DNA from: Falsiroseomonas oryziterrae
GTDB taxonomy: Bacteria > Pseudomonadota > Alphaproteobacteria > Acetobacterales > Acetobacteraceae
Length of the DNA stretch: 41,527 nucleotides
Reading direction: 5' to 3'
Assembly (NCBI RefSeq): GCF_021864505.1
Contig: NZ_JAKJIB010000009.1
Span: 1 to 41,527, forward strand
Shown one piece after another: positions 4,947 through 29,253 of this stretch. A program made the position numbers and the translations under genes. Positions within the stretch are counted from its first letter, which is position 1; every line of letters starts with the position of its first letter. The notes under the pieces were generated by a model. That model worked only from the letters and a program-made list of their open reading frames with translations. It did not search any database and was not told the origin of the DNA.

Positions 4947-5022
4947 GTCCCATTCGTCTAGAGGCCTAGGACACCGCCCTCTCACGGCGGCAACAGGGGT
5001 TCGAATCCCCTATGGGACGCCA
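4947..5022 (+). tRNA. tRNA-Glu (anticodon CTC)
   Basis: A complete cloverleaf can be drawn. The acceptor stem is GTCCCAT (4947-4953) with ATGGGAC (5012-5018). The anticodon stem is CCGCC/GGCGG around the loop CTCTCAC, with anticodon CTC at 4981-4983. The T arm contains GGTTCGAATCCCC, the discriminator is G5019 and CCA is encoded at 5020-5022. It decodes GAG. Its 3' half is the integration target of the adjacent element: the serine recombinase frame on the opposite strand ends inside it. Confidence 0.96.
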
Positions 5023-6833: not shown

Positions 6834-7299
6834 GGCCGAACCAGCTACATCGTCAGACCGGGACGCGCGCCACCTATTTCTTGCCCTGGTCTAGAACTGA
6901 GTCCGGCTGCGCGCGCCGCGACACCTCGACTACGCGGTCAACGGCGAGCGCGCCGTCACAGGGGAGGCAGACCAGTGTACGTTCGGCGCGCGACCACAGG
7001 GGCCCCTGCCGTGCACTCGAGTGCACGGTGTGCAGCTCCGGCTGATGTGCTGCTGTGCGCGAGCATCTTGGGACCTCGCACTCGGTCAGCGACTGGGGGC
7101 TTGCGCGTTAACGGTCAGCTCTCGACCCTTCTCAGACATTCAGCCGCGGCGGTTCGGGTCCTGACAGCGAACGCCACGAGCCGTATCGGGAACCGAAAAC
7201 ACTCGGGAAGAGACCGCCTCCTCAGATTCAGCCGCCAAAATGGGTTCGAGGTTCCCTCGCGCGTCGTTAGGCAGTAGCATCAATCCTGGGGGCGACACG
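6834..7299. other. Divergent intergenic region with palindrome copy 1
   Basis: 466 bp between the recombinase operon (minus) and gajA (plus). I see no supportable gene; a long plus-strand frame through it is repeat-poor, Arg/Pro-rich and typical of a chance ORF in GC-rich DNA. It holds the first GTGCAC palindrome at 7009-7028 and the ribosome-binding site of gajA (GGGGG at about 7288-7292). Confidence 0.6.
7009..7028. repeat. GTGCACTCGAGTGCAC palindrome, copy 1
   Basis: The 16-bp core at 7011-7026 is extended to a 20-bp perfect palindrome by CC/GG. It lies between the divergent recombinase and gajA genes, 272 bp before the gajA start. It is one of five such sites; see the copies at 11865, 14944, 18721 and 19391. 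Confidence 0.9.
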
Positions 7300-9597
7300 A
7301 TGCATCTGCATTCTTATCGACTGCGGAATTTTCGGCGGCTTCGAGACGTGCATGTCGAACTTGCATCCGACATCTCTATTTTTGTTGGCGCGAATAACAG
7401 CGGAAAAACATCTGCTACGCAGGCGATGCAGATGTTCCTCAACGGCGGCAAAAATGCCTTTAGCCTGTATGATTTCAGCTCCCATGTATGGCCGTTGTTG
7501 GATGAGATCGGCGAAAGAAACGGCGAGATCGCCGAGGCGGAGTTTCCAACCGTCGCGCTCGACCTTTGGTTCGAGGTAGGAGCGGAAGACCTCTATCTCG
7601 TTATCCCCATCCTGCCATCGACCGCTTGGGCCGGAACGCTAGTGGGCATCCGCGTAGAACTTGCGCCGAAGAACATCTCCGACCTAATTCAGCGATACCG
7701 CGCCGCTCGTGACGAGGGCCGGGCCAAGGCGGAAGCGCTGGTCGGTGGCGCAGGCGATTACGTGCCTTGGCCGAAGTCGCTGTCGGCTTACCTGCTCGAG
7801 GAGCTGAGACGCGAGTACGAGCTGCGGTACTTCGTCCTGGATCACACGCAGTTTGACTCGAAGTTTCGCGCGGTCGAAGGATATCTGCCGCTGCCGCTGG
7901 GCAACGACCCAGGTGGCGACGCCGTGCTGAAATCGCTCGTCAAGGTCGATTTCCTGAATGCCCAGCGGCACCTCGCTGATCCATCAGCGACGTCCGTCGG
8001 TGGTGGCCGGTCGGAGGATCTGTCGAAGCGCTTGAGCCGCTTCTATCAGCGCAATCTCGATCAGCGTCAGGACGACCATCAGGCGCTCAAGGCGCTGTTC
8101 GAGTCTGAGGTGGGCCTCGACAAGCATCTTGCGGAAGTTTTTAAAGATACTTTGGAGCGATTGGGGCGATTGGGCTACCCAGGCCTCAACAATCCAAGGC
8201 TCGAAATCAAGTCAGCCCTGAACCCGGCGTCTATCATGAGCCAGGATGCGCGCGTCCACTACATCGTGGGCGAAGGCACACAGGCGATAATGCTGCCTGA
8301 CACTTACAACGGGCTTGGCTTCAAAAACCTGATATATATGGTAGTGGAAGTGCTCGATCTACAGGAGCGCTGGAAGGCTGAACAGGAGGAGCGCGCGCCC
8401 CTCCATCTCATTTTCATCGAGGAGCCCGAGGCGCACCTTCACGCGCAACTTCAGCAGGTGTTCATTCGCAACATTCTTGACTTGCTGGTCATCCCGGGTG
8501 ACGCAGGCGGGTCGTTCGCCAGCCAGGTGGTGATTACGACCCACTCGCCACACATTCTATACGAGCGCGGCTTTCAACCAATCCGCTATTTCCGGCGCGA
8601 TCTGGTCGGAAGCGACCAGGTAACCGAAGTGCTCAACCTGTCCTCATTCTACGCGCAGGAGGCCGAGCATCGCGATTTTCTGCAACGGTATCTGAAACTC
8701 GCCCACTGCGATTTGTTTTTCTCGGATGCCGCCGTGCTCGTGGAGGGCAACGTCGAACGATTGCTGCTCCCGATCATGATATCGAAAGCGGCGACATCAC
8801 TGCGATCATCCTGCATATGTATTCTGGAGGTTGGCGGCGCCTTCGGTCACCAGTTTAAGTCGCTGATCGAGTTCCTCGGGATCGTCACGTTAGTTATCAC
8901 CGACTTGGACAGTGTTACGCTCTTGCCCGCCGACCATGACGGCGAAGATGACGACGATGTAGAGCTTGAGATCGAAGCCGAGGTCGCAGAAGCGGAAGGC
9001 GTTGATAACACCGAGTCGTTGGTGGGCAGCGACGGTCCATCGGTATCGGCTTGCGGGGCCGCCGACCGTGCGCCTGCCCGTCGCTACGGTAAGAAGTGCC
9101 TGCCGGGCGTAGCCGGCGCGGTCACTTCCAATCAGACTCTCGTCAAGTGGCTTCCGGGAAAGCTTTCGATCCACGATCTCTTCGCCGCGACGGAGCAGGA
9201 AAAGGAAACCCCAGCCGACGGCACGACACGCGTCCGGGTGGCCTATCAAACGCCCGCGCCGGTTGTGTGGAATGGCCATAGCGCCGAGTTGGCCGGGCGG
9301 ACCTTGGAAGAAGCTTTCGGACTCGAGAACGCTGAGTGGTGCCAGAGCGCACAACAGCGGAGATTGGGTCTGCGCTTACGCGGTGCATTGGCTGATCCTG
9401 CCGCCCTGGCAGCGGGCCTGCACAAGCGGGTCAGTGGCGACAAGTTCGACAAGACTAAGTTCGCCCTTGGGGTGCTTACAGCCCGACCGGAAGAGTGGCA
9501 AGTTCCGAGGTACATTCACGACGGTCTCATTTGGCTTAAGGCCCAGGTCGATCTCGAAGTAGAAGCCGAAGTCGGCGGGGCCGGGGTAGGTGAGTAG
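7300..9597 (+). CDS. gajA: Gabija protein GajA: OLD-family ATPase/TOPRIM nuclease
   Basis: 765 residues. The N-terminal ABC-type ATPase begins with the RecF/OLD-like RLRNFRRLRDV, Walker A GANNSGKT at residues 30-37, and Walker B near residue 370 (LHLIFIEEPEAHLHAQLQ). The C-terminal TOPRIM domain has Glu482 in VLVEGNVERLLL and the DxD at 535-537 (VITDLDS), the metal-binding residues of OLD nucleases. In Gabija, GajA is a sequence-specific nicking nuclease held in check by nucleotides and activated when phage replication depletes them. The UvrD-like partner overlaps its 3' end by 8 bp, which defines the system. It is longer than typical GajA (about 580 residues), partly through an Asp/Glu-rich insert after the DxD. 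The ATG at 7300 follows a GGGGG tract; earlier in-frame codons do not encode domain sequence. Base composition is more A+T-rich than neighbouring genes. Confidence 0.88.
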   Translation: MHLHSYRLRNFRRLRDVHVELASDISIFVGANNSGKTSATQAMQMFLNGGKNAFSLYDFSSHVWPLLDEIGERNGEIAEAEFPTVALDLWFEVGAEDLYLVIPILPSTAWAGTLVGIRVELAPKNISDLIQRYRAARDEGRAKAEALVGGAGDYVPWPKSLSAYLLEELRREYELRYFVLDHTQFDSKFRAVEGYLPLPLGNDPGGDAVLKSLVKVDFLNAQRHLADPSATSVGGGRSEDLSKRLSRFYQRNLDQRQDDHQALKALFESEVGLDKHLAEVFKDTLERLGRLGYPGLNNPRLEIKSALNPASIMSQDARVHYIVGEGTQAIMLPDTYNGLGFKNLIYMVVEVLDLQERWKAEQEERAPLHLIFIEEPEAHLHAQLQQVFIRNILDLLVIPGDAGGSFASQVVITTHSPHILYERGFQPIRYFRRDLVGSDQVTEVLNLSSFYAQEAEHRDFLQRYLKLAHCDLFFSDAAVLVEGNVERLLLPIMISKAATSLRSSCICILEVGGAFGHQFKSLIEFLGIVTLVITDLDSVTLLPADHDGEDDDDVELEIEAEVAEAEGVDNTESLVGSDGPSVSACGAADRAPARRYGKKCLPGVAGAVTSNQTLVKWLPGKLSIHDLFAATEQEKETPADGTTRVRVAYQTPAPVVWNGHSAELAGRTLEEAFGLENAEWCQSAQQRRLGLRLRGALADPAALAAGLHKRVSGDKFDKTKFALGVLTARPEEWQVPRYIHDGLIWLKAQVDLEVEAEVGGAGVGE

Positions 9598-11524
9598 CCG
9601 CGCGCAACAGCCCGATACGCAGGCCGACGTAGATCTTCGTCACTGTCTGGAAGCGCGGCCGCCGACCAGCTTTAACATGGTTGCTGGGGCGGGTTCTGGC
9701 AAAACCACGTCGCTGATTAAGGGGCTCGCCTCGACGCTCGCCATGCACGGCGAGCGTTTGCGGTTGCGCAGGCAGCGCGTGGCTTGCATCACCTACACCG
9801 AGATCGCCGCAAAGGAGATTTGGGCGGACGTAGGGAACAATCCGCTCGTTCATGTCTCTACGATTCATAGTTTCCTTTGGTTGATTGGGCGCGCCTTTCA
9901 GCAAGACATCGCCGCTTGGGTGGCGAACAGGATCAACGAGCGGATTGTAGAACTGCAGAGTGATGCGTCCAAGTTTAGCCCTCGCGTTCAGCAGAAAACG
10001 CGGGACAAGAACGCTCGTGATATCGTGCGCTACGAGCAGCAGCGTGAGGCTATCGCTAAGGTTCGAACCTTCGCTTATGGAACCGGGAGTGACTACGCCA
10101 CGGGTATTCTAGGACACGATGACATCATCAAGATGGCTACGCGGTTGATGATGGATCGCCCGCTTTTCCGATCTCTGGTAGCGCAGCAATTTCCGTTCAT
10201 TTTTGTGGACGAAAGCCAAGACACCTTTCCTGTCGTTGTCGAAGCGTTGATGGCGATTCAGCAGCAGGAGCAGGCCCGCTTTTGCCTCGGGTTCTTCGGA
10301 GACCCGATGCAGCGCATTTATCCTACCGGGATCGGCACGGTTCCCCAACTCGACGGTTGGCGGGCGATCTCCAAACCGCAGAACTTCCGTTCGTCAACCA
10401 CGGTATTGAACCTCGCGAACGCCATACGGCGTGACGGCGATGGTCTGGTTCAGGTCGGTGGCCGGAAGAAGGAGGAGGGCAACGCGAAGGTTCCGGTCGT
10501 AGGTACAGCGCGTTTGTTTGTCCTGCCAACCGATGCCCGTCGCGACGAACGCGTGGCCGAAGTTAGAGCATGGATCGCCAAAGCAAACAGTGACGAGACG
10601 TGGCTCCCCGCCGGCGAGAACGATCCGGTAAAAATGCTAGTGATCGTGCATCGCATGGCGGCAAAGCGATTGGGGTTTGGAGACCTCTACGCAGCGCTCA
10701 ACGACAAGGCACCGGACGCTTTCAAGAATGGATTTCTGGATGCGACGGCTTGGCCACTGCGACCGTTCGTTTCGTTTCTACTCCCCCTTGCGGATGCTGT
10801 TCGCGACGGACGAAACTTCGATAGGATGCGACTGCTTCGCCTTCATTCACCGTTGCTCGAGAAGGCCAATCTGAAAGGCGTAAATGTCGCCGAGCGCCTC
10901 AACCAACTTCAGGCTTTGAGCAATCAGATCAGTGAACTGATGGCGCCGGCATCGCATGCGTCCATTCGTGACGTGTTGATGCTTGCCAAGGAAAGTCGCT
11001 TGGTCGCGCTTGACCCTCGGTTGTCTGCTTACCTTGAAGATTTCGCGGCCAATGAACCCAAAGCTAACGAGAGCGAACATGACGGAGCGGAGGGCGACGA
11101 AAATCAGTCAAATGAGATCAATTCGATGGCGGCGTTCCTAAATTGTGCAGCACATCAGCTCCGGCCTTATCAAAAATACGTACACGAGGAGTCGCCTTTC
11201 TCTACGCAGCAAGGCGTGAAGGGGGCTGAATATGATCGCGTGCTTGTTGTGCTCGACGACGATGAGGGCACACATTTTCAATTTTCGTACGAAAAATACT
11301 TCGGTCTTAAAGAGCTTTCAACTCGGGACAAAAAGACACTGGTGGAAGGCGGTGAAACCGCCGTCGAGCGAACGAGGCGGCTCTTCTACGTTTGCTGCAC
11401 ACGCGCTCGGCAAGACCTAGCGGTGGTTCTTTTCGTTGCCGATCCGGCACAGGCGATAGCGCATATTCGCGGGCTCGGGCTCTTCCCGGAAGCGGATATT
11501 CTCTCGCGGGAAGCGCTCGCTTAG
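9590..11524 (+). CDS. gajB: Gabija protein GajB: UvrD-like helicase
   Basis: 644 residues, superfamily 1 helicase-like. Walker A (motif I) is AGAGSGKTT at about residues 32-40. Motif Ia lies around ACITYTEIAAKE, motif II is DESQD at residues 207-211, motif III is FFGDPMQRIYP, and late motifs include EYDRVLVVLDD and RLFYVCCTRARQDLAVV. In Gabija systems GajB senses DNA ends or single strands produced during phage infection and stimulates GajA. The GTG start overlaps the gajA stop by 8 bp, indicating translational coupling. It is longer than the usual GajB (about 490 residues). Composition matches gajA, so the two moved together. Confidence 0.87.
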   Translation: MSSRAQQPDTQADVDLRHCLEARPPTSFNMVAGAGSGKTTSLIKGLASTLAMHGERLRLRRQRVACITYTEIAAKEIWADVGNNPLVHVSTIHSFLWLIGRAFQQDIAAWVANRINERIVELQSDASKFSPRVQQKTRDKNARDIVRYEQQREAIAKVRTFAYGTGSDYATGILGHDDIIKMATRLMMDRPLFRSLVAQQFPFIFVDESQDTFPVVVEALMAIQQQEQARFCLGFFGDPMQRIYPTGIGTVPQLDGWRAISKPQNFRSSTTVLNLANAIRRDGDGLVQVGGRKKEEGNAKVPVVGTARLFVLPTDARRDERVAEVRAWIAKANSDETWLPAGENDPVKMLVIVHRMAAKRLGFGDLYAALNDKAPDAFKNGFLDATAWPLRPFVSFLLPLADAVRDGRNFDRMRLLRLHSPLLEKANLKGVNVAERLNQLQALSNQISELMAPASHASIRDVLMLAKESRLVALDPRLSAYLEDFAANEPKANESEHDGAEGDENQSNEINSMAAFLNCAAHQLRPYQKYVHEESPFSTQQGVKGAEYDRVLVVLDDDEGTHFQFSYEKYFGLKELSTRDKKTLVEGGETAVERTRRLFYVCCTRARQDLAVVLFVADPAQAIAHIRGLGLFPEADILSREALA

Positions 11525-11900
11525 CTGCCGTCGCGGCGCTATCGGCCGCTTTCCGATTCCGACCGTCCGAAAGCAGCCTTTCCGCTGTCGGCCAGACCAC
11601 GCCATGACATACAGACACACGCGTGCTGCATTGATGTCCGTTCACCGAGGCGGAGCCGGCGAGCCCGCGAAACAAGCGAACGTCTGCAATGCGCCCATTC
11701 CAGTCCTTTCACACCTGGCTCGTATCCGAGGAGGTCGCTCCAGACCGGCTCCGGCTCGTGACGAACCACGGAGCCTTCGTCGCTGGCTGAGCATGAGGCT
11801 GTGCCGATTCCGTCATTGAGCTCTCGGCCCCCCGCCGTTCCCTTCGGGGTGGACCGGCCCGCTTGTGCACTTGAGTGCACGGCTACGGCTCGGCCGATTC
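11525..11900. other. Convergent intergenic region with palindrome copy 2
   Basis: 376 bp between the ends of gajB and the first tyrosine recombinase. No reading frame here shows protein-like composition. It contains palindrome copy 2 at 11865-11880, 20 bp beyond the recombinase stop. Confidence 0.6.
11865..11880. repeat. GTGCAC palindrome, copy 2 (one substitution)
   Basis: GTGCACTTGAGTGCAC, identical to the consensus except for T in place of C in the central TCGA. Both GTGCAC arms are intact. It lies between convergent genes. Confidence 0.85.
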
Positions 11901-13016
11901 TTAGCGTGGCAAGTCGTCCGGATGCGGATCCGCCTCCTCTTGATCGCGCTGGCGACGGAAGCGCTCGAGAAAAGCCTGCATCTGCCGGATCGAGAGCTGA
12001 CGCGATGAGCGGACGTAGTGCCGCTCGGTCGTCCGGAAGCCTGCGTGCCCGAGCAGCGCCGCCGCTTCGCGCGGCCGCTCCGGGTGGTCCACCACGAAAG
12101 CAGTCGCAGCCGAGTGCCGAAAGCTGTGCGGCGAGATTGCTCGGCCGAGTTGGCGCTCGGTCACTTCCTTGATCCGCTGCCTGACGCCCTGGTGCTCGAG
12201 CGGCTGACCGACAGCCCCGACCCAGAGGCGCGCATGGCCGGCCGGCCGACGGGCGCGGGTGAGCATTACGGGGCGCCCCTCTTCGAGGAAGTACTCGAGA
12301 TCGCCTCGAAGGCCTTCTGGTACCGGCCAGATGTCCCGCCGGCGCGTCTTGGTCCGCTCCGCGTCCAGTCGGATGTGCCAGCCACCCTCGCTAAGTCGCA
12401 GGTCGCGGCCGAGTTCGAGCGAGGCGAAGTTCCCGATCCGCACCGGTGCCGCCGCAAGCAGGGCCACCATCAGGCCTGCCTGGTAGCGGTTCGCATCGGC
12501 GATGCGACCGTCAGGACCGAGGGCCGCGTCCATCTCGGCGAAGCCTGCCAGGTAGAGATCCTCCGGCCGAGCGATCTCGCGCGGGCTCCGGCGCTCGCGC
12601 GTGGCGCGCCCCTCGAGCCCCTCGACGACGGTCCAGAGCGCGCGGAGATGCTCCGGCGGTGGCTCCGGCCCGATTGCGCGCGCGACACCGATCGCATTCC
12701 CGATGGCTGTGGCGATGGAGCTTGCCTTCAGTCCCCGTGCGAGCTCGTGATTGGCAAAGTCGGCCAGTGTCTTGGGCGTCGTCGCGGCGATGAGCGACGG
12801 GTTCCCGACGGCGGCCGGTTCGTGTGCGGCGAGCCAGGCCACGTAGCGACCTGCATCGTAGGTCGCCTGGCGCTGCCGCCTGGGCGACCAGTTCGCCGCG
12901 CCGCCCCGTTCGTCGAGAAAGCCCGGCGGCTGGCAGGCCCGTTCCCAGCCGCGCCGCCACGGCTCCGGCCATTCGGACAGCGGCAGGCCCAGCCGCTTCG
13001 GATTAGGCTTGCCCAT
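11901..13016 (-). CDS. Tyrosine recombinase A
   Basis: 371 residues. The phage-integrase catalytic set is visible: Arg193 in APVRIGNFASLEL, Lys in ERTKTRRRD, His297/Arg300 in SPHSFRHSA, LGHAGF before the end, and the nucleophile Tyr334 in RHYVRS. An N-terminal SAM-like core-binding region lies at about residues 55-160. The ATG at 13016 overlaps the TGA of the upstream recombinase (TGATG); the 12 residues before it in the open frame belong to the other gene's region and were not included. It is the second gene of a two-recombinase operon. Such pairs usually act together on one attachment site, but no site was identified. Confidence 0.9.
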   Translation of the reverse strand: MGKPNPKRLGLPLSEWPEPWRRGWERACQPPGFLDERGGAANWSPRRQRQATYDAGRYVAWLAAHEPAAVGNPSLIAATTPKTLADFANHELARGLKASSIATAIGNAIGVARAIGPEPPPEHLRALWTVVEGLEGRATRERRSPREIARPEDLYLAGFAEMDAALGPDGRIADANRYQAGLMVALLAAAPVRIGNFASLELGRDLRLSEGGWHIRLDAERTKTRRRDIWPVPEGLRGDLEYFLEEGRPVMLTRARRPAGHARLWVGAVGQPLEHQGVRQRIKEVTERQLGRAISPHSFRHSAATAFVVDHPERPREAAALLGHAGFRTTERHYVRSSRQLSIRQMQAFLERFRRQRDQEEADPHPDDLPR

Positions 13017-14758
13017 CACCGCCCACCCCGCACGAAGGCGTCGAGCGTGCACTGGTGCCGCTGGCGTGCGCGGGCCGGCAGCCGGCGCGCGTAGTGGGCT
13101 TCGGTTGTGGCGATGCTCTTGTGGCCGAGGACGTCGCGCCCGAGGGCGAGCGCCCCCGGGTGCATCCTCTCCAAGATCTCGAGGATGAGCGACCTTACGA
13201 GGTGAGGGTTGACGGCGACCCCCAGGACCTTTCCCGTGACGTCCTGCAGCGTCGTGTTCGCCGCCATGGTCGTCCAGTTGCTTCCGTCCTCGCGCGGGAA
13301 GAGCCAGGACGTTACGGCCTTGCCGGCGTGCACGCAGCGATACCGGTCGACGTAGACCTGGAGCATGCGGACCGTCTCGGGCCGGAGATCGGCGACGACC
13401 TCCTGCCCGTTCTTGAGCTCGGCGCCGCTGATCATGACCGTGAGCCCGCCCGCCGTGGTCCGGACGACATGCCGCTCAAGGTCCAGGCCGACGACGTTGC
13501 CGGACCGCAGGCCGGTGTCGAGGAGGATCTGCAGGTACAGCGCACAGCGGACGAGGCGGGCCGAGCGGATGTCGACCTCCCCCCTGCGCTCCGCCTCCCG
13601 CATGAGGCGGGCGGGCAGGTTGATCAGAGCCCTGAGGGTGTGGTCATCGCTCATGGCGGTGAGCCGCTGATGCGTGCGCTCGCCCATCTGGCGCTTCGCA
13701 CGGACCTGCTTTTCGAGATGGGCGAGCCGCCGGAGGTCCTCGTCCGCGAGCTTGGCCGCACGCCCGGCACAGAGAAGCACGACGGCCATCTGGCCGATGC
13801 TCGATCCCTGCCGCTGGTTCAGGCGCTTGCCGACGCGCTCGAGCACCTCCCTGACGCGATCGGGGCGGCAGAGGTCGGCGAGACCCTTCAGCTGATCTGC
13901 GGGAACGCCCGCCGCGACGAATTCGCCGGCGGCCCGGCGCAATGTCCCGAGGTAGTTGGCGCGCGTCTTGGGGCTGAGCTCTTCCACTGGCCTCACGTCG
14001 TCGTCGTCGAGGGAGAGCCAGCTGTCCGTGCCGGTGCCGCGCTCGACGAAGGCCTGCGCCTCTGCCTCGAGCGAGGCAGGGTAGGCTGACCAAGCGGGCG
14101 AACTCACGGCGCGGCCTGGCGCCGGCATCGTGAGGGTCTGGCTCGGCCAGCCCGGGATCTTCGCCTGGGCCGACAGCCATCCAGCGACGAGCTTGCGCCG
14201 CGCCTTGTCCGCATGCTGCTTCAGCGACGTGTCCCGGACGAGCTGCAGGAAGCGCTCGACGTGCCCGTCCGTGACGTCGGTGGGCGCGTGTCCGTGCTCG
14301 GATGCCCAATGCGCGAAGCGGCTGACAGCGGGCCAGAGCGCACTCGGACCGGCCCGCTCGCGAAGCTCGGCCCAGGCCGGCGAGAGCGGCTTGCGCGACT
14401 TCCCCGGCATCACCTCGATGCCGGCCGTTCGCAGCGCACGGCGAAAGTTGCTCATCATCGAGGACAGGCTCTTCGGGGAGCTGAAGCCGAGCGTGGCCGG
14501 GGTCACTTTCCGGAACCGCTTCTCGATGCGCGCGATGTCGACCGCCCCGGCGAGGCCGGCCGCTCCCATCTGCCGCGCGACCAGGTCGACAGCGCGGAGG
14601 ATGTTGACCCGCGTGCCGCGCGGGAGATCGGGCGCGGCGGCGACGGCGTCCTTGAGGTCAGCGAAGGTCACCGGCTTCGTGCGCGATGATCCCTCACTTC
14701 CGATCTGCGCCGGATTCGGCTTCTCGGGCTTGCTGCTCTTGTACGACGTCATGGTCAT
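13016..14758 (-). CDS. Tyrosine recombinase B
   Basis: 580 residues, with a long N-terminal extension (about 380 residues) before the catalytic domain. Catalytic motifs are the Arg in LDTGLRSGNVVGLDL, ELKNG as the beta-hairpin Lys, NPHLVRSL as the His/Arg box, and LGHKSIATTEAHYARR with the nucleophile Tyr. The His/Arg box is HLVR rather than HxLRH, so the second box His is not obvious. The start is supported by AAGGAC about 7 nt upstream, lying within a 15-bp inverted repeat. It overlaps recombinase A by one base, so both are made from one message. The two are unlike in sequence outside the catalytic motifs and therefore not a recent duplication. Confidence 0.88.
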   Translation of the reverse strand: MTMTSYKSSKPEKPNPAQIGSEGSSRTKPVTFADLKDAVAAAPDLPRGTRVNILRAVDLVARQMGAAGLAGAVDIARIEKRFRKVTPATLGFSSPKSLSSMMSNFRRALRTAGIEVMPGKSRKPLSPAWAELRERAGPSALWPAVSRFAHWASEHGHAPTDVTDGHVERFLQLVRDTSLKQHADKARRKLVAGWLSAQAKIPGWPSQTLTMPAPGRAVSSPAWSAYPASLEAEAQAFVERGTGTDSWLSLDDDDVRPVEELSPKTRANYLGTLRRAAGEFVAAGVPADQLKGLADLCRPDRVREVLERVGKRLNQRQGSSIGQMAVVLLCAGRAAKLADEDLRRLAHLEKQVRAKRQMGERTHQRLTAMSDDHTLRALINLPARLMREAERRGEVDIRSARLVRCALYLQILLDTGLRSGNVVGLDLERHVVRTTAGGLTVMISGAELKNGQEVVADLRPETVRMLQVYVDRYRCVHAGKAVTSWLFPREDGSNWTTMAANTTLQDVTGKVLGVAVNPHLVRSLILEILERMHPGALALGRDVLGHKSIATTEAHYARRLPARARQRHQCTLDAFVRGGR

Positions 14759-14764
14759 TCACGT

Positions 14765-14779
14765 CCTTTCCTGGAAAGG
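14765..14779. promoter_or_regulatory. Inverted repeat over the ribosome-binding site of recombinase B
   Basis: CCTTTCC-T-GGAAAGG, immediately upstream of the recombinase B start; on the minus strand the Shine-Dalgarno-like AAGGA is part of one arm. It may be an operator or may occlude translation initiation. Confidence 0.35.
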
Positions 14780-14943
14780 GCCGGACAAAGGCGTCCGGCA
14801 ACGAATGGGGTGGGTTGGTTTTGACTTGTTGAAGGGAGGTGATGGGTTCGTGGCGGGGTGGACATGGACGGACAGACCACGCCAGGTGCTGCCAACGAGA
14901 GGTGCAAGTGCAGATCCGTTCTGCGACGAAGTGCTCGGCGACG

Positions 14944-14963
14944 CTGTGCACTCGAGTGCACAG
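14944..14963. repeat. GTGCACTCGAGTGCAC palindrome, copy 3
   Basis: Exact 16-bp core at 14946-14961, extended to a 20-bp palindrome by CT/AG. It sits between divergent genes, about 185 bp from recombinase B and 500 bp from the ATPase gene. Confidence 0.9.
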
Positions 14964-15290
14964 AAACATGATGGGACGCGCCCGACCCTCCGCGGGAGCG
15001 CAGAGGGGATTTCGCCTTGGGACGGGGGCGGGCCGGCGTCTGGTGCTTGAGGAAGAGCATTTCGATTGTGGCGTAGCAGGCGCCTTAGCCAACCGACCGG
15101 AGCAGCACGAAGCTGGGCACGCGCTCGCGCCAGGATTCGCCTGCTGCACAGCCGGACAGCGCTGGAGGACCCAGCCCCTTGAGTTCGGTTCGGTGCAGTA
15201 CCAAATCGCTGGAGCCCGTGAGGGTGGGGCCTTGGGCCTAGAGCCCTCCGAAGAGCGAACACGCCCCTGAGTCAGAAGTGCGTCGTGCCG

Positions 15291-15310
15291 CCGCACCCCC
15301 GTTGGTGCGG
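15291..15310. promoter_or_regulatory. Hairpin in the leader of the ATPase gene
   Basis: CCGCACC (15291-15297) and GGTGCGG (15304-15310) can pair around a 6-nt loop. No T run follows, so a classical terminator is unlikely; it could shape the leader. Confidence 0.3.
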
Positions 15311-15463
15311 TGAACGGCGCCCCTTGTCTCACCGCGTTCGCGAGGCTCGAATGGTCAGCAACGAATTCCGCCATCACCGGCGGCATCCCCGCGGCCCGCA
15401 TGCTGTACGGGTGCGTGGTTCTCTCCTCCCCGGCGCAGCTGCTGCGATCCACGGGAGGTCAGC

Positions 15464-17071
15464 ATGATGGACATGGATGGAGGCCTTGGCGGGCCCGCTC
15501 CCGACGCCTTCACTACGGGCTCTAAGGATGGCGGCCCTGGATCGGGGGAGTGCAGTCCTCCGCCGAAGATCGTCGTCAACGACGACGACCCGAGCGAGAC
15601 GCTCAGCGACATCTCGGCCGCACTCCGCTGGGGTCGCGAGGTCTTCGAGCGCATGGGTATCGTCAGGGTCGGCTGCACCTCGTCAGGCCAGCTGAAGGTC
15701 GGCCGCCTTGATGCGCATGGGATCATGACCGCTGTCTACGACCTGACGCAGGTCGTGCGTCGTAAGACGGTCCCGGGCGGCGAGGTGACCTACCAGCCCT
15801 GCAGCCTGCCGCTGCACATGGCGCGACTTTACCTGAGCGCCACCGATCGCGGGCTGCCGGAGCTCGCCGCCATCTCCCGCTCACCGCTGCTCTCAGCGGG
15901 CGGCGGTGTCCTTGCTGTGCATGGCTACGACGAAGCGAGCCGCGTACTTGTGGCCCCGATGCCCGCGCTCGATCTAAAGCTGGAGCCAAGCAAGGCCGAC
16001 GCGCGGAATGCCCTGATGTGCCTCCGCGCCGTGATCGAGACCTTTCCCTTCGCAGACGCGAAGACGGTGAAGGACACGACGACGGGCCTGCCCCTCGTGG
16101 ATCCCGCAGCGCCGATCGGCCTCGACGAGAGCTGCGCGCTGGCGGCCCTGCTCACGGCTATCTGTCGTTCGTCGCTGGACCTCGCTCCGGGGCTGCTCGT
16201 CCGTGCGCCCGCAATCTCGGGAGCCGGGACCGGGAAAGGCCGCCTTGTCCGCCTCATCACGACGGTCGCCTTCGGCGAGCCAGTGCCGGCCATGACGGCA
16301 GGCGACACCCGCGCTGAGCTCGACAAGCGCCTCGAGGCCGCGCTCCTGGGTGGGGCGGCAGGTGCCCTGCTCGACAACGTCAACGGGCGCACCCTCAAGT
16401 CAGACCGCCTCGCAAGCATGCTGACCGAGCCGGTGCTTCAGATTCGGCCGCTCCGGGCTAGCGAGGTCCATCAGGTCACCAATCGCATGTTCCTCGCCAT
16501 CACCGGCAATGGCCTCGCTATCTCTGAGGATCTGGCCCGCCGGTTCCTCTGCGTGAACCTCGACGCGGGCGTAGCGGATGCCGAAGCGCGGCCCTTCCCG
16601 GAGGGGTTCGACGAGCTCATCCGCACGCAGCGGGGGGCGTTGCTGAGCGCAGCGCTGACCATTTGGCGGTGGGGCCAGATCGAGAAGGATCTGCCTCGTG
16701 GCCGTCCGCTCGGGAGCTTCGAGCGGTGGGCACGCTGGGTGCGCGATCCGCTGCTCGCATTAGGATGCCGGGATGTGGTCGAGGTCGTCGAGAAGGCGAA
16801 GGCATCGGACGCCGAGCGGCAATGGATCGGCGATCTCTTCAACCTCTGGCATGACGTCCATGGGCTTGAGCCGGTGAAGGCAAACAGCCTGCATCCCACC
16901 GTCCTCAAGCGTCTCATGCCCGTCGGCGGCAGCCGGCAGAATGTCGTCGCGCGGCTGATGGCGCTGGATGGAGCTCGTGTCGGCGGTTTCGTGCTGACGA
17001 AGCAGGAGGCCGTCGGAAAGTGGGGCGCGGCGCTCTATCGGCTTCAGCTCGACGAGTCAGCTAAGCCGTAG
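15464..17071 (+). CDS. Helicase/primase-like P-loop ATPase of a mobile element
   Basis: 535 residues. The N-terminal region (about 1-240) is not recognised. A P-loop ATPase domain follows, with Walker A SGAGTGKG at residues 252-259, a Walker B-like GALLDNVNG around Asp304, and a sensor-like FLAITGNG segment. This resembles the replicative ATPase part of phage/plasmid primase-helicases, without an identifiable primase centre. The start has GGGAGG at an 5-nt spacing. It is followed by a strong hairpin and is convergent with the excisionase-like gene. The neighbouring Rep-like protein supports a replication role, which is inference. Confidence 0.7.
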   Translation: MMDMDGGLGGPAPDAFTTGSKDGGPGSGECSPPPKIVVNDDDPSETLSDISAALRWGREVFERMGIVRVGCTSSGQLKVGRLDAHGIMTAVYDLTQVVRRKTVPGGEVTYQPCSLPLHMARLYLSATDRGLPELAAISRSPLLSAGGGVLAVHGYDEASRVLVAPMPALDLKLEPSKADARNALMCLRAVIETFPFADAKTVKDTTTGLPLVDPAAPIGLDESCALAALLTAICRSSLDLAPGLLVRAPAISGAGTGKGRLVRLITTVAFGEPVPAMTAGDTRAELDKRLEAALLGGAAGALLDNVNGRTLKSDRLASMLTEPVLQIRPLRASEVHQVTNRMFLAITGNGLAISEDLARRFLCVNLDAGVADAEARPFPEGFDELIRTQRGALLSAALTIWRWGQIEKDLPRGRPLGSFERWARWVRDPLLALGCRDVVEVVEKAKASDAERQWIGDLFNLWHDVHGLEPVKANSLHPTVLKRLMPVGGSRQNVVARLMALDGARVGGFVLTKQEAVGKWGAALYRLQLDESAKP

Positions 17072-17107
17072 GCCACCGCTCCAGACGCGATCTTCACCAA
17101 TGACCAC

Positions 17108-17146
17108 AGGGGGCATAGGGGGCTACTGAGTCCCCCTATGCCCCCT
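17108..17146. terminator. Strong bidirectional hairpin between convergent genes
   Basis: A perfect 15-bp inverted repeat: AGGGGGCATAGGGGG (17108-17122) and CCCCCTATGCCCCCT (17132-17146) with a 9-nt loop. It lies between the ends of the ATPase (plus) and the excisionase-like gene (minus). No T tract follows on either strand. Each arm also contains an internal direct repeat of the G5/C5 block. Confidence 0.6.
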
Positions 17147-17190
17147 ATGCCTCGCGGCGCTGAGAACGGATCTGGGGGTCTGTCGCGGGC

Positions 17191-17463
17191 TTAGACGCTC
17201 AGCTTCGGAGCGGTGCCAAGTTGCGGGTTGACGCGGCCGCGCTCGATCAGCGCGGCGATGTCCTCGGGCTTCACCATCAGCTGCCCTCCGAGGCGATGTG
17301 CCGGAAGCGTGCCTGCCTCGATCCAGCGGCGAAGGGTCCGGGGCGACCGTCCGAGCATCAGCGCTGCCTCGGACAGTGCCAGCAGACGACGCTGCACGCC
17401 CGGGCGAGTTGGGCGCGGGCGAGAGACGCCGACGACCGGCTGCATGGCTGCTCGCTTGTCCAT
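17191..17463 (-). CDS. Excisionase-like HTH protein (MerR/Xis type)
   Basis: 90 residues. The winged-helix core is LLALSEAALMLGRSPRTLRR followed by WIEAGTLPAHRLGGQLMVKPEDIAALI, the DNA-binding pattern of excisionases and MerR-like adaptors. The ATG at 17463 has AGGAG about 10 nt upstream; the longer open frame above it overlaps the Rep gene and is a shadow. In tyrosine-recombinase elements such proteins set recombination direction or repress neighbouring promoters. It is divergent from the Rep-like gene, so it may regulate that 195-bp interval. Confidence 0.82.
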   Translation of the reverse strand: MDKRAAMQPVVGVSRPRPTRPGVQRRLLALSEAALMLGRSPRTLRRWIEAGTLPAHRLGGQLMVKPEDIAALIERGRVNPQLGTAPKLSV

Positions 17464-17658
17464 CAGGTGCTTCTCCTCGCGTCGTATCGGCCGATCGATC
17501 ATCGCATCGGAGCGAGGGGCGAAGCCGTGCGGCGGAACGCGTGGCGCATTCGCTGTACCGGCACGAAGAATCAAAGTTGCGCGGCCTTCCCCTATCACGC
17601 AGGTGAGTTGGCAGGCGCTGACCGCGATTGGCCTCGATTGGCACGAGCAGCGCCGGCC

Positions 17659-18717
17659 ATGACCGCTTTCGGTCACGGCGCATCTCAACGCGCCTATTGG
17701 GAACCCCCAGCGATGCTCGATGAGTCTTACAGCCCCGGCCACATTCATCCGCTCTTCGAGAGCAAGACCTCGAAGGAGGTGAAGGCCAACCTGAAGGTCG
17801 ATCGCCTGACTCTGCTCCTGCCTCTTCATCCCAACGATCACGAGATCGCCCTGAACCATCTCATCAGCCTCAAGCTTCATGCCGGGGCTGAGGGCATCCT
17901 TCCGGCGGGCTGGTCTGCGAAGAAGGGGAGCATGGTCGCGTTCAGCGTGATGATCCCGACGAGCACCTCTCCGCTCATCTGGTCGAAGACGCCGGGCGCC
18001 CTGGTGCAGCTGAAGCCCGCGCCCGGTGGAAAGCGCTTGCTGCGGATCGAGATCTTCCCGCTTGGCCTGACGCCTGAGGGGTTCACGTACCTTTACGACG
18101 AGCTGCTGTGCGGGCATCTGTCCATGCATCCCGGCGAGATCGCGAAGGCGCGTGTTTCGCGCCTTGATCTTGCTCTCGATCTGCATGGCGTCCGGCTCCA
18201 GGACTGGGCGTGGGCGATGCCGTCGCGGAGTGTTGTCCGGCATTATGTCAGCAAGGGCGTTGTGCGCACGCTGTATCTGGGGTCACCCAAGCACGGCGCG
18301 CCCTGCATTTACGACAAGGCTTCGCAGCAGAAGATGAGTGGCGGCGAGGCCTGGACCCGCGTCGAGCTGCGTCCGAAGCCGAACGTGCCTCTTGCGGCCT
18401 TGCCCCTGCTCAAGAATCCCTTCGCAGCGATGCGCGTCTACGACGTCCGCTCTGCCTTCGGAGTGGTGAACCCCGGGCAGGTCTGTCGCGAGCTGGCGCT
18501 GTCCCATGCGCAGCTCAAGGGCATCACGAACCTCCTGGGTCATGTGCCCGATACGAAGGGGCACAGCATGGCGAAGTCGGCACGGCAGCGCCTTCGCGAG
18601 GCGCTGGACGGGTCCGCACCGTCTTGGTGGACCCCGCAGACCTTTTGGCAGGGCTGGCCGGATGCTCTTGCGATGGCCATGCCGCCCCTCTTCGAGAAGA
18701 CGCCTCTGATTGGCTGA
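17659..18717 (+). CDS. Rep-like replication initiation protein
   Basis: 352 residues from the ATG at 17659; a second ATG at 17713 (334 residues) is also possible, and neither has a clear Shine-Dalgarno. Family signals are a RVSRLDLALDLHG block (the xDxxxD-like motif of rolling-circle-type Rep proteins) and a TRVELRPKP block, spaced as in plasmid/phage replication initiation factors (Rep_trans group). A candidate nucleophile Tyr is IYDKASQQK. The function would be to nick and start replication of an excised element. It is followed after 3 bp by palindrome copy 4, then convergent with the ParB-like gene. Confidence 0.7.
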   Translation: MTAFGHGASQRAYWEPPAMLDESYSPGHIHPLFESKTSKEVKANLKVDRLTLLLPLHPNDHEIALNHLISLKLHAGAEGILPAGWSAKKGSMVAFSVMIPTSTSPLIWSKTPGALVQLKPAPGGKRLLRIEIFPLGLTPEGFTYLYDELLCGHLSMHPGEIAKARVSRLDLALDLHGVRLQDWAWAMPSRSVVRHYVSKGVVRTLYLGSPKHGAPCIYDKASQQKMSGGEAWTRVELRPKPNVPLAALPLLKNPFAAMRVYDVRSAFGVVNPGQVCRELALSHAQLKGITNLLGHVPDTKGHSMAKSARQRLREALDGSAPSWWTPQTFWQGWPDALAMAMPPLFEKTPLIG

Positions 18718-18720
18718 GCA

Positions 18721-18736
18721 GTGCACTCGAGTGCAC
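18721..18736. repeat. GTGCACTCGAGTGCAC palindrome, copy 4
   Basis: Exact 16-bp palindrome, 3 bp after the Rep-like stop codon and 50 bp beyond the stop of the convergent gene at 18787. It is one of the two copies flanking that gene. Confidence 0.9.
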
Positions 18737-18786
18737 AACCCGAATGGCTAGCTCGGGAGTGTCCCGGTGCCCGAATAACGTTCGGG

Positions 18787-19323
18787 TTAAGGGGCACTCC
18801 CACGGCCGGTCACGGCGGCTTTGCAGATCGCGACCAGCGCCGCCGTTCGCGCGCGTGGCCCAGCACCGGCCGGCGCTCCGAACCGAGCCAGGGCGGCCCG
18901 GACAGTGGCCGCCTGCCGCTGGTCGAGTGCGAAGCTTAGGACCTCCGGTTTACCTGCATCGCCGTCTGCGCTGACGGCGCGGGAGGGCGCGCTCACGGCT
19001 CTGGACACCTCCGACGCGCTGACGCGCCGTCCCCGCTTCAGGGCATCGCGCGCGAGCGCCCGTGCGCGGACAACGCCAAGAGCTGCCACATTCGCTTCGG
19101 TCATGAGCCCGGCCTGGACCGCCTCGGCGATCGTGACCAGGTAATAGGCTTGGCGGCGGGACAGCCCGGCCTCGGTCGCCGCAGCGTCACGGTCGGCCCC
19201 GGAGAGTTTCGCCAACAGTCGACCCATGAGCACAGGCCTGGTCCGGCCCGCGCGGATCTGTTCTAGCAGATCGTCCAGGACGGCCTCGTAGAGCTTCACT
19301 CGACGCGGAGACTGCCGTGTCAT
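18787..19323 (-). CDS. Unknown DNA-binding protein with ParB-like HTH segment
   Basis: 178 residues. The central part, DAAATEAGLSRRQAYYLVTI followed by AEAVQAGLMTEANVAALGVVRARALA, follows the layout of the ParB/KorB HTH (helix-turn-helix, then a basic segment leading to a 'regions of low-level choice' helix). The similarity is by eye and the usual N-terminal CTP-binding ParB box (GxxRxxA) is not seen, so this is not a standard ParB. The C-terminal half looks helical. The ATG at 19323 was chosen; an earlier in-frame GTG lies inside palindrome copy 5. The gene is flanked by palindrome copies 4 and 5, and its upstream neighbours on the same strand are 19432-20025 and 20022-20315. Confidence 0.55.
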   Translation of the reverse strand: MTRQSPRRVKLYEAVLDDLLEQIRAGRTRPVLMGRLLAKLSGADRDAAATEAGLSRRQAYYLVTIAEAVQAGLMTEANVAALGVVRARALARDALKRGRRVSASEVSRAVSAPSRAVSADGDAGKPEVLSFALDQRQAATVRAALARFGAPAGAGPRARTAALVAICKAAVTGRGSAP

Positions 19324-19390
19324 GTTCCTCACTCGGCCAGATCGCACCAGAAGGAGGGTAGCGACCGACCGGACCAGGGGCCACCGGTCG

Positions 19391-19408
19391 CGTGCACTCG
19401 AGTGCACG
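19391..19408. repeat. GTGCACTCGAGTGCAC palindrome, copy 5
   Basis: Exact 16-bp core at 19392-19407, extended to 18 bp by C/G. It lies 68 bp upstream of the ParB-like gene start and just after the end of the preceding gene, in a position suitable for an operator. Confidence 0.9.
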
Positions 19409-19431
19409 AGACCGGGCCCTAGAAGGCAATG

Positions 19432-20025
19432 CTAAGGATCTGCGTGCGCAGGCGGTTCGGCCGCAGGTGGGGAGAGTGATCCTACGCGCTTGAGCACGTC
19501 GCGCGCCTCTGCGACCGCCGCGCGGAGCTCGACTGCCGACGCGTCGGGCTCCAGTACCCGCGCCGCCACGTGCCGCAGCCGCTCGATCGCGGTCCACAGC
19601 TCGCCCGCGCGCTTCAGCAGCTCCGGCTCGAGGTGGTCGATGGCGGCAACGACCGCCTCAGCCTCGTCCTGCAGCGCAGCCTCGGCCTCCGAGCGCGGCG
19701 CCCGCCGGGGCCACACGTCGCCTTCAGCCCGCCGTGCCTCCATCGCCCGCTCAAGCCGCTCCGTCGTGGCACTCCGCCGCCCCGAGCCCGTGAGCCGGAC
19801 CTCCCAGCTCCACAGACGCTCGGGATGCGGCGGCCAGGTCACGCCAGGGAACAGCAGGTCCTGGCGGTCCATGTGCCAGATCGCATCCGTCAGGCCCGTG
19901 ACGATGTGGGCGTCGGGGACGACGACCCGCTGGTCGATGTCGAGCACGACCTCGAGCCGGAGCCGCCGGCCACAGGCAGACGGGCGACGCAGGCCATGGC
20001 GGGCCTTGATGGCGTCCTCGCTCAT
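19432..20025 (-). CDS. Unknown protein, coupled to the upstream small gene
   Basis: 197 residues. The N-terminal part (about 20-85) has alternating hydrophobic strands (RLRLEVVLDIDQRVVVPDAH, later LWSWEVRLTG). The C-terminal half is helical and acidic, with a likely coiled-coil stretch (AEAVVAAIDHLEPELLKRAG). No family recognised. The ATG at 20025 overlaps the TGA of the upstream gene (ATGA), which sets this start against a longer frame. It lies between the small upstream gene and the ParB-like gene, so the three may form one operon. Confidence 0.6.
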   Translation of the reverse strand: MSEDAIKARHGLRRPSACGRRLRLEVVLDIDQRVVVPDAHIVTGLTDAIWHMDRQDLLFPGVTWPPHPERLWSWEVRLTGSGRRSATTERLERAMEARRAEGDVWPRRAPRSEAEAALQDEAEAVVAAIDHLEPELLKRAGELWTAIERLRHVAARVLEPDASAVELRAAVAEARDVLKRVGSLSPPAAEPPAHADP

Positions 20026-20315
20026 GCCGGCCTCCGTGCCGCTCCGGGGCGGTGCGAGCGCGGCGGATGCCGGTGCATCAGGGGCACGTAGCTCTCCATG
20101 GCGAGCCGTACCGTGCCGGCCGGCGCACCGGGCATCAGCCACATGCGGAAGCCCGGGCCGACACGGAACGCGATCTCGGGCTGCAGGGTGACGGTGCGGC
20201 CGTCGGGGGTGGTGAGGTCGGCGGAGCCGTCAGCGTGGATCTTGGCGACGAGCCAGATGTCGGTGCCGTCGACGCGTACCCCTTCGCCTTCAGGAATGAC
20301 CCAGAAGATGGCCAT
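20022..20315 (-). CDS. Unknown small beta-rich protein (weak CsrA resemblance)
   Basis: 97 residues with a beta-strand pattern (FWVIPEGEGVRVDGTDIWLV, then GRTVTLQPEIAFRVG) ending in TVRLAMESYVPLMHRH. That ending is laid out like the CsrA strand VRIGVNAPKEVSVHRE. The resemblance is short and the N-terminal CsrA sequence is absent, so the function is left open. The ATG at 20315 is used; 25 additional codons upstream are not protein-like. Its stop overlaps the next gene by ATGA. Confidence 0.5.
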   Translation of the reverse strand: MAIFWVIPEGEGVRVDGTDIWLVAKIHADGSADLTTPDGRTVTLQPEIAFRVGPGFRMWLMPGAPAGTVRLAMESYVPLMHRHPPRSHRPGAARRPA

Positions 20316-29251: not shown

Positions 29252-29253
29252 CC

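Follow-up and report, generated by a model that had tools for sequence, protein, structure and literature searches.

Five copies of a 16-bp palindrome, GTGCACTCGAGTGCAC, lie within one integrative element of Falsiroseomonas oryziterrae, in the 41,527-nucleotide stretch of contig NZ_JAKJIB010000009.1 analyzed here (the window). Judged from sequence comparison, this palindrome is probably (we estimate roughly three chances in four) the DNA recognition site of a KorB/ParB-like HTH protein encoded at positions 18787 to 19323 of the window. A dimer of the protein would read two GTGCAC half-sites around a CG or TG center. Because one site lies just upstream of the protein's own gene, autoregulation is most likely; the remaining four sites would position the protein in the gaps between backbone and cargo genes. 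We consider a KorB-like mode of action most likely, in which a small protein on dispersed operators would restrain the element's genes, and the protein may also help to organize or retain a free form of the element. Given binding, regulation is the first candidate for its use at somewhat below even odds, partition is less probable, and DNA organization or another role is less probable again.

Five palindromic sites in an integrative element

Four of the copies are exact (starts at 7011, 14946, 18721, and 19392), and the fifth, at 11865, reads GTGCACTTGAGTGCAC, with one mismatch and a TTGA center. Scanning both strands of the window at up to 3 mismatches returns exactly these five matches, spanning 12.4 kb, against a mean of 0.30 in 100 dinucleotide shuffles of the window, none of which reaches five. 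This bears out the first-pass annotation, which had described five copies, one with a substitution at 11865, and none elsewhere in the window. Among the palindromes of 14 or 16 bases listed, only GTGCACTCGAGTGCAC has at least two copies in the window. Written as TGCACT-NN-AGTGCA, it is also the window's top gapped palindrome, with five copies, and fits the build TGCAMY-NN-RKTGCA.

A genome-wide count had been suggested as a check; in the whole assembly (4,632,875 bases, 735 contigs) there are four exact copies of GTGCACTCGAGTGCAC, all on the window's own contig, so this is not a common chromosomal sequence. With the own genome counted in each case, the exact 16-mer occurs in 3 of 99 relatives, and a family sample of 397 genomes, from which G005 (a related genome described below) was not drawn, has 5 with a copy at up to one mismatch. 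GTGCACTYRAGTGCAC occurs in 1 of 378 genomes of a phylum sample, namely the own genome.

All five sites fall outside the window genes that have support, in keeping with the intergenic placement first described. Site 1 (7011 to 7026, exact) lies between a large serine recombinase gene (4966 to 6633, minus strand), which overlaps a tRNA-Glu gene (4947 to 5022, plus strand), and the Gabija genes gajA (7240 to 9597) and gajB (9590 to 11524), identified with PADLOC. The Gabija region (7240 to 11524, plus strand; G+C content ~56–61% per kb) forms the cargo between sites 1 and 2. Site 2 (11865 to 11880, one mismatch) lies 20 bp past the stop codon of tyrosine recombinase 2 (11901 to 13052, minus strand), which is followed by tyrosine recombinase 1 (13016 to 14758, minus strand); both match Pfam PF00589. 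Site 3 (14946 to 14961, exact) separates tyrosine recombinase 1 from a divergent gene with a P-loop-like motif recognized by eye and no assigned function (15464 to 17071, plus strand; phrog_29234, E 4.5e-47). Beyond it are genes for an excisionase-like protein (17191 to 17469, minus strand; phrog_66, E 5.9e-11) and a Rep_trans-like replication initiation protein (17713 to 18717, plus strand; Pfam PF02486, E 3.4e-6 and 27.2 bits, below the cut-off of 29.6). Site 4 (18721 to 18736, exact) follows the Rep stop codon by 3 bp.

The gene for the proposed site reader, a KorB/ParB-like HTH protein of 178 amino acids, comes next (18787 to 19323, minus strand). Site 5 (19392 to 19407, exact) lies 68 bp upstream of its likely ATG and 24 bp past the stop codon of gene X (19432 to 20055, minus strand, start approximate), which has no assigned function and no supported Pfam family. 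By eye, the ATG at 19323 is the likelier start of the HTH gene, whose longest frame would begin within the site at 19392. No sigma-70-like promoter was found between 18700 and 19480. Given its Rep, Xis, and recombinase genes, the element can probably replicate outside the chromosome. It also carries Ssp defence genes. A search for the element's far end through a repeat of the tRNA-Glu region returned none of at least 14 bases in the window.

The HTH protein belongs by profile to a phage family

A profile built from phage relatives only, with the window left out, matches the 18787 gene at E 1.9e-6, its sole match among 565 window ORFs, which places the protein in a phage HTH family that goes with dispersed TGCA-type palindromes. 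A separate iteration that started from the protein of locus L014, again without the window, reaches it at E 0.016 in round 1 and at 6e-4 to 9e-4 in rounds 2–5 (18,235 ORFs). The homology is distant, at 14–22% identity to the other rows of the alignment. BLASTP gives no match between the 18787 and L014 proteins, and neither tblastn of the 18787 protein in plasmids nor a viral scan with it returned a match. When the HTH alignment was searched against 385 genomes of the class, only the own genome matched.

Foldseek places the predicted model of the protein weakly nearest to the DNA-binding domains of KorB, ParB, and SopB. These fill ranks 1–10 with probabilities of 0.47–0.94, E values of only 0.27–1.0, and low TM-scores (0.24–0.33 by query among the top ten). 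The match to phrog_4715, 'ParB-like', is weak (E 0.03–0.04), and Pfam recognizes no ParB domain (N-terminal, CTP-binding) in the 178 residues at E ≤ 10. The label DUF3102 was tried and dropped: one member of the L014 branch, from phage Pd_22F, is so annotated, but PF11300 matches neither the own genome at E ≤ 10 nor the L014 protein, and the label was not used as a sign of membership.

Many phages with relatives of the protein carry dispersed palindromes

Ten phages were chosen from tblastn lists of relatives, with query proteins from contigs that had first been found through the motif. TGCAAY-NN-RTTGCA occurs at least five times in six of the ten (27, 25, 15, 13, 10, and 5 copies), and no gapped palindrome of that spacing is more frequent in these six. 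The four others do not show the strict repeat in the stretches covered: no palindrome recurs in VHS1 or SIO-2, BHU-17 has three copies, and RHph_TM16 has two, alongside five copies of GTGCAA-N4-TTGCAC. The count is at most 3 in any of 13 control blocks, which comprised blocks of unrelated viral contigs from a scrambled-palindrome scan and six plasmid stretches. DLP5 and V-YDF132 also encode proteins annotated as ParB-type, which are alternative possible readers. A LacI-type operator has a central CG, and a reading of the sites as LacI-type operators was dropped because the center varies among the phages.

Family genes were found at E ≤ 0.05 in 11 of 116 motif loci versus 1 of 47 loci from the scrambled-palindrome scan, a difference that is only suggestive. 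The 11 include L014, which served as the query, and L122, a contig that went into the model. The position of the palindrome is the stronger point: it lies inside or within 100 bp of the family open frame in 8 of the 11 motif loci and in 0 of 1 control.

Recognition-helix residues go with half-site bases

Palindromes of 18 bp or more recur at one place within the gene in the L014 branch, in 38 of 56 nonredundant loci against 0.18 expected; the 18787 gene has no palindrome at that place. Across 40 nonredundant loci, residues of the helix were compared with bases of the half-site. All 14 loci that have Arg at helix column 11 carry G at −6, compared with 2 of 26 that have another residue there (Fisher 5e-9). 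G at −8 accompanies Arg at column 10 (31/31; other residues 4/9), and T at −7 accompanies Tyr at column 14 (23/23). The rule pairs score z 9.2, 7.5, and 5.8, and values up to z 5.3 also occur at columns outside the helix, so relatedness can account for part of the signal.

The helix of the 18787 protein, S-R-R-Q-A-Y-Y by alignment, predicts GTG at −8 to −6, and the site sequence leading to the dyad is GTGCACTC; these three fitting positions were compared once the site was already known. Base −5 (C) contradicts the rule: column 9 is Ser in the 18787 protein, and 10 of 13 loci with that residue have A at −5. The half-site GTGCA accompanies the helix pattern RR[QN][AV]Y[NTQY] in 6 of 7 loci with that pattern and in 0 of 33 without it, the pattern having been picked after the data were seen.

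The misfit at −5 bears on whether the sites are instead operators of an unrelated regulator, of the element or of the host, that resemble the phage family sites by convergence. Palindromes of 16 bp are a common operator form, and the AT-rich phages L015–L017 carry several copies of the same 16-mer next to small genes that look HTH-like by eye and are missed by the family profiles. However, the gene that has a site 68 bp upstream is the one that belongs by profile to a family tied to such sites, and the rest of the own genome lacks the exact 16-mer, which makes a host regulon unlikely. We consider an unrelated regulator improbable.

The L014 correspondence argues against a role of the repeats as hairpins in RNA (GUGCAC-UCGA-GUGCAC), such as termination, since its bases follow the residues of a recognition helix. 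Three of the five copies do lie at gene 3′ ends, and by eye a G–U pair on the plus strand is retained in 8 of 9 variant copies in L015–L017. Against this, no terminator-like site was found at 18700 to 19480, and DNA symmetry is complete, including the center, in four of the five copies. Such a role is highly improbable.

A related island shares the backbone and the sites

In an island of G005 (probably Roseomonas ponticola; locus L011), three sites adjoin the same backbone genes, and the cargo between them differs. The 16-mer is therefore retained in a related island that shares the backbone, another check that had been proposed. Its Rep is 61% identical to that of the window, tyrosine recombinase 1 is 57% identical, and gene X, kept beside a site, is 43% identical to L011 1762 to 2361. 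Sites 2, 4, and 5 have their counterparts at L011 19577, 14984, and 2480, the last adjoining the gene X homolog. Site 3 has none, and the P-loop gene is not seen in the G005 module. When the Rep alignment was searched against 299 genomes of the family, from which G005 was not drawn, only the own genome matched.

This arrangement might suggest that the tandem tyrosine recombinases use the palindromes for crossover or docking, with cargo cassettes (Gabija, the HTH gene, or others) swapped between identical sites. Both modules retain two recombinases, and G005, which gave no match to the HTH gene, has its sites on either side of the Rep–xis–recombinase module and next to gene X, with other cargo between. 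The distances from backbone gene to site vary, however, between window and G005: 3 versus 11 bp for Rep, 20 bp past the stop versus overlapping the gene end for recombinase 2, and 24 versus 118 bp for gene X. The junctions are thus not exact, and the earlier description of one site at each module boundary is fair for the window only in this looser sense. Moreover, plasmid relatives of recombinase 1 (26–30% identical) lack the palindrome at up to 2 mismatches in 6 of 6 stretches, and the related sites of phage DLP5 are spaced fairly evenly, with several lying in genes. We judge a recombination role quite improbable.

Recognition by the 18787 protein had been foreshadowed by the first reading of the sites as parS-like, as operators of one regulator, or as insulators, which pointed to this gene. 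The profile grouping with phage proteins tied to similarly built palindromes and the weak structural likeness to KorB, ParB, and SopB favor recognition by this protein, but gene and sites do not always occur together: no homolog was returned for G005 or for G014, which has one site, in searches at E ≤ 1e-3 and E ≤ 10.

Elements without the gene would be expected if the sites were parS-type centromeres, for the element or a co-resident plasmid, and gene-less elements borrowed the protein of another replicon, as SGI1 does with IncC ParB. We regard this as the less likely course, and it overlaps the preferred reading, which does not tie the bound protein to one use. One published report describes sites without the gene, and a KorB that serves partition and also regulates globally (PMC10954446). 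Moreover, a relative of the protein occurs in DLP5, a phage reportedly isolated from a lysogen as a phagemid (PMC7326821). Against a centromere, the 18787 protein has no ParB domain at E ≤ 10, and no relative of it was found in G005 or G014. No ParA family appeared among the scanned window proteins, which covered part of the ORFs and included several frames antisense to Ssp genes; the ParA ATPase gene that accompanies parB in ParABS systems likewise was not seen in this set, which covered part of the small ORFs.

Comparison with known systems

Protein family, site family, and a testable recognition rule are brought together here. We tentatively suggest, at less than even odds, that small KorB-like HTH proteins form an unrecognized, widespread family whose members mark mobile genomes with a site type of their own, set by a readable amino-acid-to-base rule. 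These sites would be neither ordinary promoter operators nor ParABS centromeres; they would represent a third way to organize a mobile genome, without ParA or a CTPase domain. If so, the family's sites would include the often evenly spaced TGCAMY-NN-RKTGCA palindromes of large phages and at least one phage-plasmid, the operator within the gene itself in the L014 branch, and the five sites around cargo in a defence-carrying integrative element. The protein–site pair is also present in an element with Gabija and Ssp genes, where it might account for the control or stable inheritance of such elements, and the rule may allow sites to be predicted from protein sequence.

Among known systems, KorB of IncP plasmids is comparable in that a ParB-type HTH is the best, though weak, Foldseek match to the window protein, and in its dispersed palindromic operators in a replicon, reported as 12 operators of 13 bp each (PMC10954446). 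The window protein differs in its 178-residue length, the lack of a recognized ParB N-terminal domain, its site sequence, and the lack of a known partner protein. According to the same source, 14 parS copies are scattered through the IncC backbone, mostly in intergenic regions, and SGI1 is an integrative element that has parS-like sites without the gene, two features resembling those seen here; the IncC core is TTTCACATGTGAAA, however, and a ParA–ParB pair is encoded there (PMC10954446). Cluster O mycobacteriophages carry 34 genome-wide copies of a 17-bp dyad-symmetric repeat, many but not all intergenic; the sequence differs (TGTTCGGNNNCCGAACA), and that report is not known to assign it a function or to name a reader protein for these earlier-noted palindromes (PMC4351075). 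In prophage SP-beta, the intergenic element SPBRE is likewise repeated within one mobile element and read by a master repressor, MrpR, which is reported to have a tyrosine-recombinase fold in place of a ParB-type HTH (PMC10516654).

In its own genome the exact palindrome is confined to one contig

The contig carries a tRNA-Glu gene and a large serine recombinase that overlap on opposite strands (4947-6633), a Gabija system in AT-richer DNA (56-61% G+C per kb), two tandem tyrosine recombinases, a protein of family phrog_29234, an excisionase-like protein, a Rep_trans-like protein just below the Pfam cut-off, a 178-aa KorB/ParB-like HTH protein (18787-19323, minus strand) and gene X (19432-20055, minus strand). 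To the right of gene X, on the contig shared with Gabija, PADLOC identifies SspC, SspD, SspF, SspG and SspH (22423-36247, plus strand), which we take to be a phosphorothioation-linked defence set. From this gene content we infer an integrative element with replication genes. A search of the window for repeats of at least 14 bases found neither a second copy of the tRNA-Glu/serine recombinase region nor, by this means, the far end of the element.

Scanning recovers the five palindromes reported in the first-pass annotation: GTGCACTCGAGTGCAC is exact at 7011, 14946, 18721 and 19392 (sites 1, 3, 4 and 5) and has one substitution, giving a TTGA centre, at 11865 (site 2). The claim that none lies elsewhere in the window is borne out with up to three mismatches allowed, and five matches were reached in 0 of 100 shuffles of the window. 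The 16-mer is not common on the chromosome, the alternative that a whole-genome count was to address; exact copies occur on the window's contig alone in the assembly (735 contigs, 4.63 Mb). Among 99 relatives, exact copies are found in the own genome (four), G005 (one) and G014 (one). In a family sample of 397 genomes, five hold the palindrome at up to one mismatch; in a phylum sample of 378, the YR-centred form is present in one, the own genome. GTGCACTCGAGTGCAC was not found in open-licence papers, in keeping with the earlier statement that no described element with this sequence was known; of five 14-mer cores, TGCACTCGAGTGCA alone occurs there, in three papers whose titles concern other topics. 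A second contig of this genome, C668, holds an apparent decayed C-terminal part of the HTH gene with broken frames (locus L013, ~13200-13450), and no palindrome at up to four mismatches.

Phage relatives of the HTH protein and repeated palindromes

The AlphaFold2 model of the 18787 protein (14 rows) is helical, with a pLDDT of 77.8 and a pTM of 0.56. Its ten best PDB matches are all operator-bound KorB, an RK2 repressor co-complex (presumably also KorB), centromere-bound ParB or DNA-bound SopB. As none passes E 0.001 (E 0.27-1.0, probability 0.47-0.94, low TM-scores), these matches are support, not proof, of a KorB/ParB/SopB-type likeness in the predicted fold.

Two viral relatives, initially encountered on contigs bearing the motif, served as tblastn queries and gave 45 and 44 phage records; the hosts in the best 25 of each were Vibrio, Rhizobium, Stenotrophomonas, Rhodobacter, Aeromonas and, once, Tunturiibacter. 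Pseudomonas phages came in through a further search, which used the RHph_I4 protein. A profile built from phages without the window matches the 18787 gene (E 1.9e-6) as its sole hit among 565 ORFs, spanning the HTH and a C-terminal segment. By title, no paper on this phage family appears among the open-licence matches listed (one list being the best 10 of 32). DUF3102 is mentioned in three open-licence papers, and judging from their titles none deals with what it does.

The most repeated gapped palindrome was sought in each phage without supplying the motif, in the whole DLP5 record and in stretches of 41.5-50 kb from nine of the ten phages. TGCAAT-NN-ATTGCA occurs 27 times in DLP5 and five times in RcZahn, TGCAAC-NN-GTTGCA 25 times in RHph_I4, and GTGCAA-N4-TTGCAC five times in RHph_TM16; no repeated form was found in the stretches (41.5-50 kb) of VHS1 and SIO-2. 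In these six phages the random model (one per phage and spacing) gave at most two copies. A later set gave 15 copies in RcKickapoo, 13 in V-YDF132, 10 in HJ05 and at most three in BHU-17. The strict form is thus present at least five times in six of ten phages picked as family carriers, and a looser form in a seventh, compared with at most three copies in 13 control blocks. Not counted are two IMG/VR contigs (17 and 13 copies), since the motif itself had found them. Sites at up to one mismatch are spaced so evenly in DLP5, RHph_I4 and V-YDF132 that 0, 2 and 0 of 5000 random placements match them; evenness is less clear in RcKickapoo (0.018) and HJ05 (0.011), and does not exceed random in RcZahn (0.71) or the window (0.19). 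Open-licence searches on palindromes dispersed in phages or on phage proteins resembling KorB led to the Cluster O paper (PMC4351075); "palindrom" is absent from the main text of the DLP3 paper, and "inverted repeat" from the Rhodobacter phage paper.

Recognition-helix residues covary with half-site bases

The exact 16-mer also occurs in four IMG/VR viral stretches. In one, L014, it adjoins a gene for an HTH-like protein. Scanning with this protein and relatives (nine query rows, two of them from motif loci) yielded 65 viral loci which, with three phage records, make 68 loci (56 nonredundant). In 38 of the 56, nucleotides 230-250 (counted from the profile start), which lie within the coding sequence downstream of the HTH, hold a palindrome of 18 bp or more with no more than one mismatch, against 0.18 expected from the remainder of the loci. 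The palindromes vary in sequence, with many half-sites reading TGTNNNNYC towards the dyad and some TGTGCA. Most HTH genes of this L014 branch (viral loci L199-L263) have this fixed in-gene palindrome, and their linker peptide is therefore partly written by it.

When palindromes of 16 bp or more are counted at this place, 48 of the 68 loci have one (19 have none and one is too close to an end), and 40 are left after removal of near-duplicates. Arg at helix column 11 accompanies G at -6 from the dyad in 14/14 loci, compared with 2/26 for other residues (Fisher 5e-9); Arg at column 10 accompanies G at -8 in 31/31 (others 4/9), and Tyr at column 14 accompanies T at -7 in 23/23. These pairs reach z values of 9.2, 5.8 and 7.5, respectively, where non-helix columns reach 5.3, the level that relatedness alone can give. 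Over the first 55 residues, likeness among the six loci with GTGCA half-sites is 0.50, against 0.52 for all. Applied to the aligned window helix, S-R-R-Q-A-Y-Y, the rule gives GTG at -8 to -6, as in the window site, in a comparison made with that site already known. The C at -5 misfits, as Ser at column 9 pairs with A there in 10 of 13 loci.

Most simply, the palindrome would be read by the 18787 protein, a prediction to which we give a probability of about 0.75, lowered from 0.78 because the strict form occurs in six rather than seven of the ten phages and the -5 misfit is counted.

With up to two mismatches allowed, the other three stretches, L015-L017, hold seven, five and four copies, respectively; all three are AT-rich, and the TTGA variant is also present in L015 and L016. 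The small HTH-like genes that lie near their sites, by eye, were not recovered by the family profiles. The 16-mer and its variants (L015 7194-11570, L016 9151-10514, L017 7192-9620) have A/T-rich flanks in phages that, by eye, carry GroEL. Two further loci (L116 809-886, L125 747-824) have three GTGCA-type near-palindromes in ~80 bases, seemingly one array in opposite orientations.

Gene placement of the sites and related islands

Site 5 sits 68 bp upstream of the ATG of the 18787 gene, which suggests that the protein would regulate its own gene through this site. Recombinase 2, Rep and gene X each have a site beyond their 3′ end (2, 4 and 5, respectively). A promoter-only operator leaves this placement unexplained, and the role of the sites therefore likely extends past promoter control, as the authors of the Cluster O paper likewise argued for the repeats of those phages (PMC4351075). 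The predicted binding may serve Kor-like control, partition or DNA organisation.

In G005, Rep is 61%, recombinase 1 57% and gene X 43% identical to the window proteins, and by eye an excisionase-like gene and recombinase 2 adjoin Rep and recombinase 1. This related island keeps three sites beside these genes: at 2480 after gene X (TTGA centre), at 14984 after Rep (exact) and at 19577 at the end of recombinase 2 (one mismatch). Presence of the sites does not strictly track the 18787 gene, since no homolog of its protein was found in G005 (three sites) or G014 (one). By eye on translations, the interval between the gene X and Rep sites holds the HTH gene alone in the window, whereas in G005 it holds kinase-type genes and insertion sequences. 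As cargo fills this slot, G005 could have lost the HTH gene; alternatively, it could borrow a protein, by analogy with SGI1 (PMC10954446).

Recombinase 1 has distant relatives (26-30% identical) on six plasmids; the plasmid stretches examined hold no such palindrome at up to two mismatches. The single exact copy in G014 (contig C9, 29391; 15392 in locus L009) directly precedes a frame that, by eye, resembles a truncated serine recombinase C-terminus.
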